From an uncultured Paracraurococcus sp. (GTDB taxonomy: Bacteria > Pseudomonadota > Alphaproteobacteria > Acetobacterales > Acetobacteraceae), in NCBI GenBank assembly GCA_903896535.1, contig CAITYE010000164.1:1-32331 (forward strand): 32,331 bases of DNA, written 5' to 3'. The position numbers and the translations under genes are program-made. Below the pieces are notes generated by a model. It was not told the origin of the DNA, ran no database searches, and saw nothing but the letters and a program-made list of their open reading frames with translations. Shown piece after piece: positions 12,423 to 16,411 of the stretch (positions are counted from its first letter, which is position 1; the number at the start of each line of letters is the position of its first letter).

Positions 12423-12932
12423 TCAGGCCGCATCCTCGCGCCGGTCGCGCACCCGAACATAGGCGATCGCCGCGTGCTCGGCGCAATAGGGCTTACCGAA
12501 GATCGACTCGCCGCCGCAGAAGTGGAAGCCGGGCGTGCCCGGCTCACCGAGCGGCCAGCAGCAGGACCGGTTGCTGGAGCGGGGGAAGGAACGGACGACA
12601 GCGGCCTGGGCGACCGGCGCCGGCGGGGCGACCACCGGGCGGGGGGCCGAAGCGGGCTCGACCCGCCGCGGCGCCAGGGCGGGCTGGCTCGCCGGCATCC
12701 GGAAGACCGGCAACTGGGGCGGGCGGCGCGGCTGCAGGGTCCGCTGCGCGGCCCGGGCTTGCGCTGCCGGATCGCGGCGGATTGGGCTGGGGCGCGCCGA
12801 GAGATTGAGCCGATGCGCCTTGCCGACGATGGCGTTCTTCGAGACGCCCATACGGCGACCGATCTCGGCGGTGGAATGACCTTCCGCCCAAAGCGTCCTC
12901 AGTTGCTCGATCGCCTGCGCCGTCCAATCCAT
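12423..12932 (-). CDS. gcrA: Cell-cycle regulator GcrA
   Basis: GcrA is an alphaproteobacterial sigma70-associated transcription factor that acts with CcrM methylation of GANTC sites to drive S-phase and division genes. The 169-residue product has the N-terminal helix-turn-helix region MDWTAQAIEQLRTLWAEG then STAEIGRRMGVSKNAIVGKAHRLNL (20-44), a proline/alanine-rich linker (about 46-112) and a C-terminal cysteine-rich module with Cys124, Cys125, Cys139, Cys150 and His153 (RSCCWPLGEPG, FHFCGG, YCAEH). An AGGGGG ribosome site precedes the ATG. It stands alone on the minus strand between two other minus-strand units. A 31-bp palindrome lies 22 bp upstream and may be its operator or leader hairpin. 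Repeat copy A follows the stop. Confidence 0.95.
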   Translation of the reverse strand: MDWTAQAIEQLRTLWAEGHSTAEIGRRMGVSKNAIVGKAHRLNLSARPSPIRRDPAAQARAAQRTLQPRRPPQLPVFRMPASQPALAPRRVEPASAPRPVVAPPAPVAQAAVVRSFPRSSNRSCCWPLGEPGTPGFHFCGGESIFGKPYCAEHAAIAYVRVRDRREDAA

Positions 12933-12954
12933 GTGGTATCCCCCTGTCGCTGAC

Positions 12955-12985
12955 TACCATATCTTGCGACCCACAAGATACGGTA
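12955..12985. promoter_or_regulatory. Long palindrome upstream of gcrA
   Basis: TACCATATCTTG (12955-12966) and CAAGATACGGTA (12974-12985) form a 12-bp inverted repeat with one mismatch and a 7-base centre (CGACCCA). The near end is 22 bp before the gcrA start codon and the far end is 88 bp from the upstream terminator, so it lies at or just downstream of the gcrA promoter. It could be an operator for a dimeric regulator or a hairpin in the leader RNA. I do not recognise it as a CtrA, DnaA or GANTC site. Confidence 0.6.
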
Positions 12986-13073
12986 GGCGACACGCCTCAT
13001 CGACCACAAGCTATGGCGTGCCTGGGAGTTGCGATTTTCTGTGGAAAACCCGGTCAGATGTTTCCCGAAAATG

Positions 13074-13128: not shown

Positions 13129-14733
13129 TTATTGCAGATCGACGGTCACCAGGTCCTGGAACCAGGACTGCGCCGAGACAAAGCCCTTCACCCGCCGCGA
13201 CATCGCCCGTGGGTTCAGGTCGTGCACGATGTAGAGCCAGGGCGGGTTATCGACGAGCCGGGCATGCGCCTTGGCGTAGGCCGCGTTGAAGGCGGCCTCA
13301 TCGCGGGCGTTTTCCAGCTGGAGAAACGCCGCCTCGAAGGCCGGATCGTTCCATTGCGCCCAGTTGAAGCCGTTCGGCGGCACGAAGGCCTGCAGGAAAT
13401 ACCGCGCGGCGACCGAGGGGTCCGAGGAGGGCGAGGACGGGTTGACCGCGGTGGAGCCGCTCAGGATCGGCGCTTCCGGCCCACTGCGGACCGCGGTCAG
13501 CAGCGTGTTCCACTCGGTCACCTCGAAGCCGACCTCGACGCCGCAGGCCTCCTTCAGGTTCTGCTGCATGTACTCGTTCATCGGCAGCGGCAGCATCTGG
13601 CCGGACCCGGAGGCCGAGATCATGACCTTGAACTTCAGCGGGTTCTGCGGCCCGAAGCCGGCGGCGGCGAGCAGCGCCTTGCCCTTCGCCGGATCGAACG
13701 CATAGCGCTGTTCGGGCGTGCCGAAATTCGGATCGCCCGGCTTCAGCCAGCCGACGCTTGGCTCGGCGGTGCCGTTCAGCAACTGCACCAGGCCGGCGCG
13801 ATCGACGCAGTAGTTCAGCCCCTGGCGGACCCGCACATCCTTGAACGGCGTCGCATTGCCGCCGGTCTGGAAGAACCACGGCCAGACATGCGGGTAGGAA
13901 TTGGTCACCACGCTGAAGCCCGCCTGCTTGAGCGAGGGGATGGCATCCGGCGGCGGCACCTCGATCCAATCCACCTGGCCGGAGCGCAGCGCGGCCAGCC
14001 GGCTATTCGCCTCCGGAATCGGCAATAGCAGCACACGATCAAGCTTCGGCACTCGCGTCGCGTCCCAATAGCCCTCGTTCTTCGACAGCTCCGCCGAGAC
14101 GCGCGGGGTGAATTTCGAGAGCTTGAACGGCCCGGTCCCGGCCGGTGGGGTCAGCGCCACCTTGCCCCAATCCCGCCCCGCCTGCTCAAAGCTCTGCGGG
14201 CTGACGAACAGCACATAGGTGATCATGTAGGGGAAATAGCTGGCGACGCGGCTGGTGGTCAGCGCCACCGTCATGTCGTCGATCTTGCGATAGCCGGCCA
14301 TGATCGGCACCCGCGCCTTGGACGCGCCGGCCCCCGCGGGGTCGAATTGCGGGCTGTCATTGCGGAAATGCCGGTCGAGATTCCAGATCACCGCATCGGC
14401 ATTCAGCGCCGTGCCGTCATGGAACTTCACCCCGGGACGCAGCTTGAAGATCCAGGTCTGCGGATCGGCCGGGTCTTGCGACCAGCTTTCGGCCAGGCCG
14501 GGGCGCAGCGTCGCCGGCCGGTCGGCGCGGCTGAGATCCCAGAGCACCAGCCCCTCATAGGCCGGATAGCCAAGAAAGCGGACGCCCTCGAAGCCGTTGT
14601 TGGGCGCGCCGGTGGTGGTCGGGACATCGGCGGCGGTCATCGCGATGCGCAGCACTTTCTGCTGCGCCAGCGCCGGCGCGGCGGCGAACAGGGCCGCGAG
14701 CGCGACGGCACCGGTACGAAGGGTATTTCTCAT
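13129..14733 (-). CDS. Peptide/nickel-type ABC substrate-binding protein (SBP_bac_5), paralogue 1
   Basis: The 534-residue protein has a signal peptide (cleavage expected after Ala23, ALA-QQ) and the family 5 extracellular solute-binding fold: GFEGVRFLGYPAYEGLV, LRPGLAESWSQDPADPQTWIFKLRPGVKFHDG (about 77-108) and a long C-terminal domain ending FVSAQSWFQDLVTVDLQ. Such proteins bind oligopeptides, nickel-chelates, opines or similar ligands for ABC import. GGGAG precedes the ATG at normal spacing. It is the last gene of a three-gene unit, 40 bp after its paralogue, with the terminator just beyond. Most aligned residues match the upstream paralogue, including almost the whole mature N-terminus, so they arose by tandem duplication. 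No permease or ATPase gene is adjacent. Confidence 0.92.
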   Translation of the reverse strand: MRNTLRTGAVALAALFAAAPALAQQKVLRIAMTAADVPTTTGAPNNGFEGVRFLGYPAYEGLVLWDLSRADRPATLRPGLAESWSQDPADPQTWIFKLRPGVKFHDGTALNADAVIWNLDRHFRNDSPQFDPAGAGASKARVPIMAGYRKIDDMTVALTTSRVASYFPYMITYVLFVSPQSFEQAGRDWGKVALTPPAGTGPFKLSKFTPRVSAELSKNEGYWDATRVPKLDRVLLLPIPEANSRLAALRSGQVDWIEVPPPDAIPSLKQAGFSVVTNSYPHVWPWFFQTGGNATPFKDVRVRQGLNYCVDRAGLVQLLNGTAEPSVGWLKPGDPNFGTPEQRYAFDPAKGKALLAAAGFGPQNPLKFKVMISASGSGQMLPLPMNEYMQQNLKEACGVEVGFEVTEWNTLLTAVRSGPEAPILSGSTAVNPSSPSSDPSVAARYFLQAFVPPNGFNWAQWNDPAFEAAFLQLENARDEAAFNAAYAKAHARLVDNPPWLYIVHDLNPRAMSRRVKGFVSAQSWFQDLVTVDLQ

Positions 14734-14773: not shown

Positions 14774-16366
14774 CTATTGCAGATCGACGCGGCTGAGATC
14801 GATGAACCAGCTCTGCGGGCTGACGAAGCCGGTGACCCGCTTGCTCATCGCCCGTGGATTGAGGTCGTGCACCACCCAGAGCCAGGGCGCGCCATCGACC
14901 AGGCGGGCCTGCGCGGTGCGGGTCAGCGCGTCGCGCTTGGCCGCGTCCGTCTCGGTCTCCAGCGCCGTGAAGGCGGCATCGAACGCCGCGTCCTTCCAGT
15001 GCCCGGCATTCGAGCCTTTCGGCGTGAAGTTCGGCGAGAAGAACCAGCGACCCATCGCCGAGGGATCAGAGGAATGCAGGCTGATATTGAGCGCGTCAGC
15101 GCCCAGCCATTGCGGCTGCCCCGGTTCGTAGCGCAGCCCAGCGAGGAGCGTGTTCCACTCGACCACATCGAAGCTGATCTTCACGCCGCAATGCTGCAGC
15201 AGCTGCGCCTGCAGCAACTCGTTCATCGGCAGCGGCAGCATCTGGCCGGACCCGCTGTTGGAAATCCCGATCTTCAAGGAAAGCGGCTTCTGCGGCCCGT
15301 AACCAGCCGCCGCGAGCAGCGCCTTGCCCTTCGTCGGATCGAGCCCGTAGCGATTCTGCGGGCTGCCGAAATTCGGGTCATTCGCCTTCAGATAGCCAAC
15401 CGCGGGCTCTGCCGTGCCGTTCAGCAGCGCCACCATTTCGGCGCGGTCGATGCAATAGTTCAGCCCCTGGCGGACCCTTTCGTCGGCGACCGGGCTGTCC
15501 GGCCGGCCGGCGGCGAAGACCCAGGGCCAGATATGCGGATAGCTGCCGGTCACCACGGCGAAGCCCGCGGCTTTCAGCGAGGCGATCGCATCCGGCGGCG
15601 GCACCTCGATCCAATCGACCTGCCCCGAGCGCAGTGCTGCAAGCCGGCTATTGGCCTCCGGCACCGGCAGCAGCAGGACGCGATCGAGCTTCGCCTTCTC
15701 CCCCCAATAGGCGTCGTTCCGCACGAACTCGACCTGCTGGCGTGGCACGAAGCGAGAGATCTTGAACGGGCCGGTGCCGGCCGCCGGCAGGGCCGGCACC
15801 TTGCCCCAGTCCCGCCCCGCCGCCTCGAAGCTTTGCGGCGAGGTCAGCAGGACATAGGCGGTGAGATAGGGCCAGTAGGAGACCGGTCGGGTGGTCTCCA
15901 TCTCGACCGTCATGTCATCGATCTTGCGATAACTGGCGAGCACCGGAATCCGGCCCCGCGTGATGGCGCTGCCGGCGGGGTCGAATTGCGGGCTGTCGTT
16001 GCGGAAGAACCGATCGAGGTTCCAGATCACCGCATCGGCGTTGAACGCGGCGCCATCATGGAAGGCGATGCCGCGGCGCAGGCGAAACACCCATTTCTTC
16101 GGATCGGCCGGGTCCTGGGTCCAGCTCTCCGCCAACCCGGGCTTGATGTCGGACAGCCGGCTCGGGTTGCTGTGGTCCCAGGCGACCAAGGGCTCGAACA
16201 CCGGGTAGCCCAGGAAGCGCATGCCTTCGAAGCCGTTATTCGGCATACCCGTGGTGGTGGGCACATCGGACGCCGTCATGGCGATGCGCAGCACTTTCTG
16301 CTGCGCCTGCGCGGCCAGTGGCAGGGCCGCCAACAGGGCGGCCAGGGTGAAACGGGCAAAGGTCAT
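14774..16366 (-). CDS. Peptide/nickel-type ABC substrate-binding protein (SBP_bac_5), paralogue 2
   Basis: The 530-residue product starts with a signal peptide (MTFARFTLAALLAALPLAAQA, cleavage expected before QQKVLRIAM). It then follows the SBP_bac_5 pattern seen in its downstream neighbour, including GFEGMRFLGYPVFEPLVAWD, SGQVDWIEVPPPDAI and the closing FVSPQSWFIDLSRVDLQ. The start at 16366 is preferred over an in-frame ATG 12 codons upstream because GGGAG sits eight bases before it and the signal peptide then begins at residue 1. The two proteins differ mainly in the C-terminal half, so their ligands may differ. It lies 45 bp downstream of a Bug-family gene on the same strand. Bug proteins normally serve a different transporter type, which makes the pairing unusual. 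Confidence 0.92.
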   Translation of the reverse strand: MTFARFTLAALLAALPLAAQAQQKVLRIAMTASDVPTTTGMPNNGFEGMRFLGYPVFEPLVAWDHSNPSRLSDIKPGLAESWTQDPADPKKWVFRLRRGIAFHDGAAFNADAVIWNLDRFFRNDSPQFDPAGSAITRGRIPVLASYRKIDDMTVEMETTRPVSYWPYLTAYVLLTSPQSFEAAGRDWGKVPALPAAGTGPFKISRFVPRQQVEFVRNDAYWGEKAKLDRVLLLPVPEANSRLAALRSGQVDWIEVPPPDAIASLKAAGFAVVTGSYPHIWPWVFAAGRPDSPVADERVRQGLNYCIDRAEMVALLNGTAEPAVGYLKANDPNFGSPQNRYGLDPTKGKALLAAAGYGPQKPLSLKIGISNSGSGQMLPLPMNELLQAQLLQHCGVKISFDVVEWNTLLAGLRYEPGQPQWLGADALNISLHSSDPSAMGRWFFSPNFTPKGSNAGHWKDAAFDAAFTALETETDAAKRDALTRTAQARLVDGAPWLWVVHDLNPRAMSKRVTGFVSPQSWFIDLSRVDLQ

Positions 16367-16411
16367 GGCATGGCTCCCGGCAGGATCTCGCGGGTCATGC
16401 AAGACTCGTGC

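Follow-up and report, generated by a model that had tools for sequence, protein, structure and literature searches.

NrdR-like boxes and a putative NrdR operator upstream of the cell-cycle gene gcrA in an uncultured Paracraurococcus

The gcrA locus and its palindrome

The stretch of DNA analysed here, called the window (32,331 nucleotides from an uncultured Paracraurococcus sp.), carries on its minus strand gcrA, the gene of the master cell-cycle regulator GcrA, an S-phase transcription factor. The product was recognised by the Pfam model (Table 1), and its match to the NCBIfam model NF050816 reached 100.6, that is, below that model's own cut-off of 280. Across the intergenic region the neighbour of gcrA is a co-oriented gene for a solute-binding protein, separated from the gcrA promoter by a stem-loop that resembles an intrinsic terminator; therefore, read-through into gcrA from upstream seems improbable. 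On that side of gcrA, two consecutive and clearly similar solute-binding protein genes look like a tandem duplication.

Table 1. Coordinates of the features at the gcrA locus (positions in the window; box scores are those of the nrdA-derived matrix described in the text).
Feature	Position	Strand	Remarks
gcrA	12423-12932	minus	Pfam GcrA PF07750, 1.2e-33, 117.2 bits against a cut-off of 26.9
Palindrome	12954-12986		inverted repeat; consists of the adjacent boxes 1 and 2, offset by 17 bp
NrdR-like box 2, TCGCAAGATATGGTAG	12954-12969	minus	proximal half of the palindrome; score 13.84, best of the window
NrdR-like box 1, CTACCGTATCTTGTGG	12971-12986	minus	distal half of the palindrome; score 12.70, second in the window
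Candidate -10, TACCGT	12980-12985	minus	inside box 1; 18 nt from TTGTGG; inferred
Candidate -35, TTGTGG	13004-13009	minus	inside box 0; inferred from its position relative to box 1 and from relatives
NrdR-like box 0, ACGCCATAGCTTGTGG	13004-13019	minus	weaker, score 10.0; 33 bp upstream of box 1
DnaA-box-like element, TTTTCCACA	13040-13048	minus	upstream of gcrA, beyond the palindrome
Intrinsic-terminator-like stem-loop	13076-13105	minus	separates the first solute-binding protein gene from the gcrA promoter
First solute-binding protein gene	13129-14733	minus	extracellular solute-binding protein family 5
Second solute-binding protein gene	14774-16402	minus

The preliminary description of this DNA had pointed to a 12-bp inverted repeat, with one mismatch and a 7-base centre, just before gcrA. 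The repeat is real, and its arms extend by one more base on each side (CTACCATATCTTG and CAAGATACGGTAG: 13 bp, 12 of 13 positions paired, one mismatch, 7-nt centre); the distance to the gcrA start, previously put at 22 bp, is 21 nt to the ATG when measured from this longer palindrome. It was rightly called AT-rich in a GC-rich region (52% A+T, against 30% in the window), and it is, as had been claimed, neither a CtrA nor a GANTC site, given that inspection of positions 12940-12995 found neither the CtrA motif TTAA-N7-TTAA nor the CcrM motif GANTC.

As a bare inverted repeat, the palindrome is unremarkable in 32 kb and, alone, it proves little. Inverted repeats this good (arms of 12, at most one mismatch, loops of 3-20) have 28 placements here; the background, 30 resamples of a first-order Markov model, gave 8.7 ± 4.8. 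Several others in the window equal the palindrome in quality. What stands above chance is the conservation and the identity of the motif, not the inverted repeat as such. A genome-wide search for the same palindrome, which had been suggested earlier, returned a single copy (31-mer, up to three mismatches), and a regulon defined by this 31-mer pattern was rejected because of this one genomic copy.

NrdR-like boxes at gcrA and nrdA

NrdR is the dATP/ATP-sensing repressor of the ribonucleotide reductase (RNR) genes. The 16-bp dyad upstream of gcrA resembled the NrdR box, and a symmetric matrix was built exclusively from nrdA promoters, with 128 sites contributed by 64 of 70 loci and the NrdR consensus used as seed; the 70 nrdA regions were taken from the 143 genomes with an nrdA match. 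As a positive control, the matrix recovered both boxes in the E. coli nrdHIEF oligonucleotide used in the cryo-EM of NrdR (PMC12176259), with scores of 16.4 and 15.5 and at a distance of 31 bp. When the 32 kb of the window were scanned, the top two sites were exactly the two halves of the palindrome. By the same matrix all three boxes of the locus match the 16-bp palindromic boxes of RNR promoters, and inspection of the sequence revealed C4 and G13 in each of them.

Box 0 is weak, having a G where position 9 is normally T, and three sites of the window outside this region score slightly above it, so that box 0 counts only by virtue of its spacing. This spacer, 17 bp between boxes 0 and 1, falls within the first of the two ranges, 14-17 and 24-27 bp, that NrdR accepts between boxes according to PMC12051234. 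The pair of boxes 0 and 1 scores 22.7, against a maximum of 12.75 in the flanks of gcrA loci; in 491,044 flanking bases no pair reached 14. Boxes 1 and 2, instead, are separated by 1 bp, outside the NrdR-compatible spacings, and are therefore too close for one NrdR tetramer.

Candidate -35 and -10 elements of gcrA were recognised inside boxes 0 and 1 (Table 1), and relatives show TTGAGC-N17-TACCAT-like pairs. A scan with the sigma-70 consensus called no promoter and missed these candidates too. It is plausible, on the basis of position and comparison with relatives, that boxes 0 and 1 overlap the -35 and -10 of gcrA.

The genome from which the window comes (G000) encodes one NrdR, P0002, with a TIGR00244 score of 172.9 bits against a cut-off of 124.65; the five solved structural relatives found for it are all NrdR entries. 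Its sequence has D15, R17 and the arginines RRRR at 26-29, and D15, R17 and arginines 26-29 are the DNA-contacting residues of S. coelicolor NrdR, as described in PMC9110341. The nrdA promoter of the same genome carries the boxes ACACCCTATTTGGTGT and CACCAACATCTAGTGG, 32 bp apart.

NrdR was detected in 141 of the 150 genomes of the family, and seven of the nine others are draft assemblies. In five of these drafts (G027, G090, G112, G127 and G149) the nrdA stretches have box-like sites, the strongest in G149 and G127, and nrdR may therefore just be missing from the assembly. The remaining two, G029 and G115, are near-complete Acetobacteraceae genomes with no detectable NrdR and no boxes at either nrdA or gcrA; since they share one genus, this absence counts as one event. 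A different situation was found in eight reduced genomes of Acetobacteraceae (G135, G061, G130, G054, G116, G117, G030 and G040), in which NrdR is present but the gcrA score stays below 5: box-like sites are present at their nrdA, as pairs in most and as a single strong box in G130 and G054, so that here the link to gcrA is gone although NrdR has been retained.

Conservation of the boxes upstream of gcrA

To compare the region among Acetobacteraceae, 106 loci (76 + 30) were collected; omission of 10 without a usable start left 96 regions, reduced to 87 after removal of identical stretches. At least three of the 87 (L057, L060 and L066) probably belong to other Alphaproteobacteria and the rest are nearly all Acetobacteraceae, the genus of the window being represented by its own genome only. 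In most of these regions gcrA is preceded by a 16-bp dyad with the consensus NTACYGTATNTNGTRG, which usually starts 37-59 nt before the ATG and whose counterpart in the window is box 1. Taking the best site of each region, C4 is present in 86/87 and G13 in 86/87. A second box 17 bp further on, that is, the arrangement of box 2, was found at 18 loci, the window included. With 107 stretches from Acetobacteraceae and a few other bacteria, a score of 10 was reached in the 75 nt proximal to gcrA in 77 of 107 cases, and in none of 107 in the distal control.

The spacing spectra of nrdA and gcrA both peak at 31-33 bp. Pairs scoring at least 18 at this distance were present in 39 of the 87 gcrA regions, against 1/87 at the control spacing of 36-38 bp, which leaves 48 loci of the Acetobacteraceae set with no qualifying pair. 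Other families were represented by 90 upstream regions from 98 matching genomes; those left out were the window's own genome, the Acetobacteraceae G040 and G121, and G150, G186, G221, G222 and G225. Here 44/90 regions had such a pair at 31-33 bp (control 0/90) and 46 had none, and with both NrdR-compatible spacing classes the count became 47/90 against 6/90 in the control. The gene across the intergenic region from gcrA in these families was an ABC-2 permease in all ten loci tested, never an nrd gene. In 20 further regions, mostly picked for partial gcrA matches, at most four have a pair of at least 16, and this speaks against control by NrdR in that group.

In a Caulobacteraceae-like family, for which 30 genomes out of 50 provided loci, a pair at NrdR-compatible spacing was present in 28/30 loci (control spacing 2/30). 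The boxes are 41-42 and 62 bp apart, and the spacing spectrum of this family has its peak at 41-42 bp, which corresponds to a spacer of 25-26 bp, within the second spacing class given in PMC12051234. In the loci L338-L367 we also observed an array of NrdR-like boxes at about -168, -106 and -65 from gcrA, with spacings of 62 and 41-42 bp, and an element like GGCGCCYATTGTGT that recurs between the first two boxes. Individually, strong boxes are limited to -168 and -65 in L338, and in L346 a single one lies at -71; the N-terminus of GcrA in both equals that of C. crescentus GcrA.

The footprinting in relatives suggested by the preliminary description thus had a double outcome: the long palindrome is not kept, its arms pairing on average at 8.7 of 13 positions in the 18 two-box loci (window included, with 12/13), and the 16-bp boxes are kept across the class. 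The comparison indicates that the units under selection are probably the 16-bp boxes and not the 12-bp inverted repeat.

In the window's own genome, a tandem pattern at 32 bp was found in six places, including nrdA, and the other five score 4.9-15.1. The same genome has a second GcrA-like gene (L108; contig C137, 20901-21344), and no strong NrdR-like box was found there, the best score being 8.2.

The earlier view that the palindrome has no likeness to a DnaA box holds for the palindrome itself, whose motif differs; a DnaA-box-like element does lie farther upstream (Table 1). In 73 of the 87 regions TTDTCCACA occurs within 150 nt upstream of gcrA, and in 0/87 between -300 and -150. In several relatives the DnaA-box-like element is TTATCCACA and can overlap the NrdR-like dyad CCACAACTTTTTGTGG, and in some it belongs to a dyad recognised by the matrix as an NrdR box, so that both labels overlap there.

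Possible control of gcrA by NrdR and known systems

Other explanations of the conserved site were considered. That it is chiefly the core promoter of gcrA, i.e., the -10 with its flanks, and resembles an NrdR box incidentally, appears improbable to us: the site is a dyad whose C4 and G13, to the left and right of AT, are conserved; in other families gcrA is again preceded by box pairs, 31-33 or 41-42 bp apart, whose distance to the ATG varies; and CYACNNTATNTNGTRG, searched with zero mismatches, occurs in the window's own genome at gcrA alone and not at other promoters. These observations are set against a nearly fixed distance of about 17-18 nt between box 1 and a TTGAGC/TTGTGG -35-like element in relatives, and against a gcrA consensus stricter than that of nrdA. 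We give little credit to a dimeric repressor other than NrdR that would recognise a similar motif and be dedicated to gcrA. Box 1 of gcrA (CTACCGTAT) does have CG at positions 5-6, where it deviates from the consensus of nrdA, and the strict pattern NTACYRTATNTNGTRK is largely private to gcrA, as 59 of its 81 matches in 150 genomes lie at most 80 nt upstream of this gene and it was found upstream of nrdA in two genomes (G074 and G135); however, a matrix made from nrdA promoters detects the gcrA sites, with the known NrdR spacing classes, and sites like box 2 in relatives hardly differ from the boxes of nrdA. In fact, CAACATCTAGTGG occurs both at the gcrA of L007 and at the nrdA of the window's genome. 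Finally, we find it hardly credible that an RNA leader hairpin controls gcrA translation, as once proposed for the palindrome, or mRNA stability, since the strong fold (-20.1 kcal/mol for the element, z = -3.2 for a 71-nt stretch) is confined to this genome, whereas the other 17 two-box loci fold at -3.5 to -12.4 kcal/mol with 6-10 of 13 arm positions paired, in most relatives a single box stands there, without such a stem, Rfam gave no match for the element, and TACCGT as -10 would put the start within it. A conserved long hairpin was likewise rejected, near-perfect arms and strong fold being peculiar to this genome.

We conclude that the palindrome very probably consists of two adjacent 16-bp NrdR boxes and forms, with the weaker third box, an operator for NrdR that covers the promoter of gcrA. 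The operator proposed in the preliminary description is thus supported, and its dimeric repressor, called unknown there, need not be so, given the match of these sites to NrdR boxes. What was observed is the motif with its spacing and its class-wide conservation, and NrdR together with canonical nrdA boxes in the same genome; the best reading is that gcrA would be a member of the NrdR regulon, and from this we infer binding, repression and a nucleotide signal acting on gcrA.

In such a mechanism, at high dATP NrdR carrying dATP and ATP would bind boxes 0 and 1 as a tetramer, which would bend the DNA and block RNA polymerase at the -35 and -10 elements overlapped by the boxes; when replication consumes dATP, NrdR would leave and gcrA would be released together with nrdAB. 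Box 2 would be an extra site in this clade. The arrangement suggests a direct link of nucleotide supply to cell-cycle control in these bacteria. Whether control of gcrA by NrdR is an ancient connection shared throughout the class Alphaproteobacteria is, to our judgement, evenly balanced: one sensor would repress both dNTP synthesis and GcrA, and GcrA would rise only as replication draws down dATP, providing a transcriptional dNTP checkpoint parallel to DnaA and CtrA. The locus would thus present an operator of a known kind at an unexpected target, conserved well beyond this species, and, if this holds, nucleotide supply would be tied to cell-cycle transcription. No link between NrdR and gcrA was found in the open literature searched, at the level of main texts; that of PMC5343134, on NrdR regulons in Proteobacteria, contains neither 'gcrA' nor 'cell cycle', and a listing may exist in its supplement or in RegPrecise.

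The likeness to the NrdR operators of RNR genes lies in the 16-bp dyads with C4 and G13 around AT, in spacers of 14-17 or 24-27 bp and in the position near the promoter. According to PMC9110341, NrdR with dATP and ATP is a DNA-binding tetramer, which suits a pair of boxes separated by roughly three turns of the helix, it represses by promoter blocking and bending, and it is described as specific to RNR genes. By contrast, the target here is the gene of a cell-cycle regulator and not of an RNR, and this clade has three boxes, two of which are 1 bp apart.

In Caulobacter crescentus gcrA is activated by DnaA, as stated in PMC3193534, and the DnaA-like box upstream of gcrA in the window (Table 1) fits with this; the palindrome, however, is a separate element, nearer to the start and with another motif. 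In the same species, when the dNTP hydrolase FssC is deleted, dNTPs rise and the initiation of replication is delayed independently of CtrA, by a mechanism that PMC12186491 states as undefined, with no mention of GcrA in its accessible part. The same source reports that a ΔnrdR mutant, made to raise dNTPs, spreads 10% more and that the double mutant with ΔfssC is synergistic; relief would be expected if dNTPs acted only via NrdR on gcrA, and these data therefore argue against the simplest model in C. crescentus. What the FssC system shares with the arrangement proposed here is that dNTP level and NrdR are tied to the cell cycle, and the possible control of gcrA by NrdR makes the replication delay caused by dNTP excess in C. 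crescentus a testable question.
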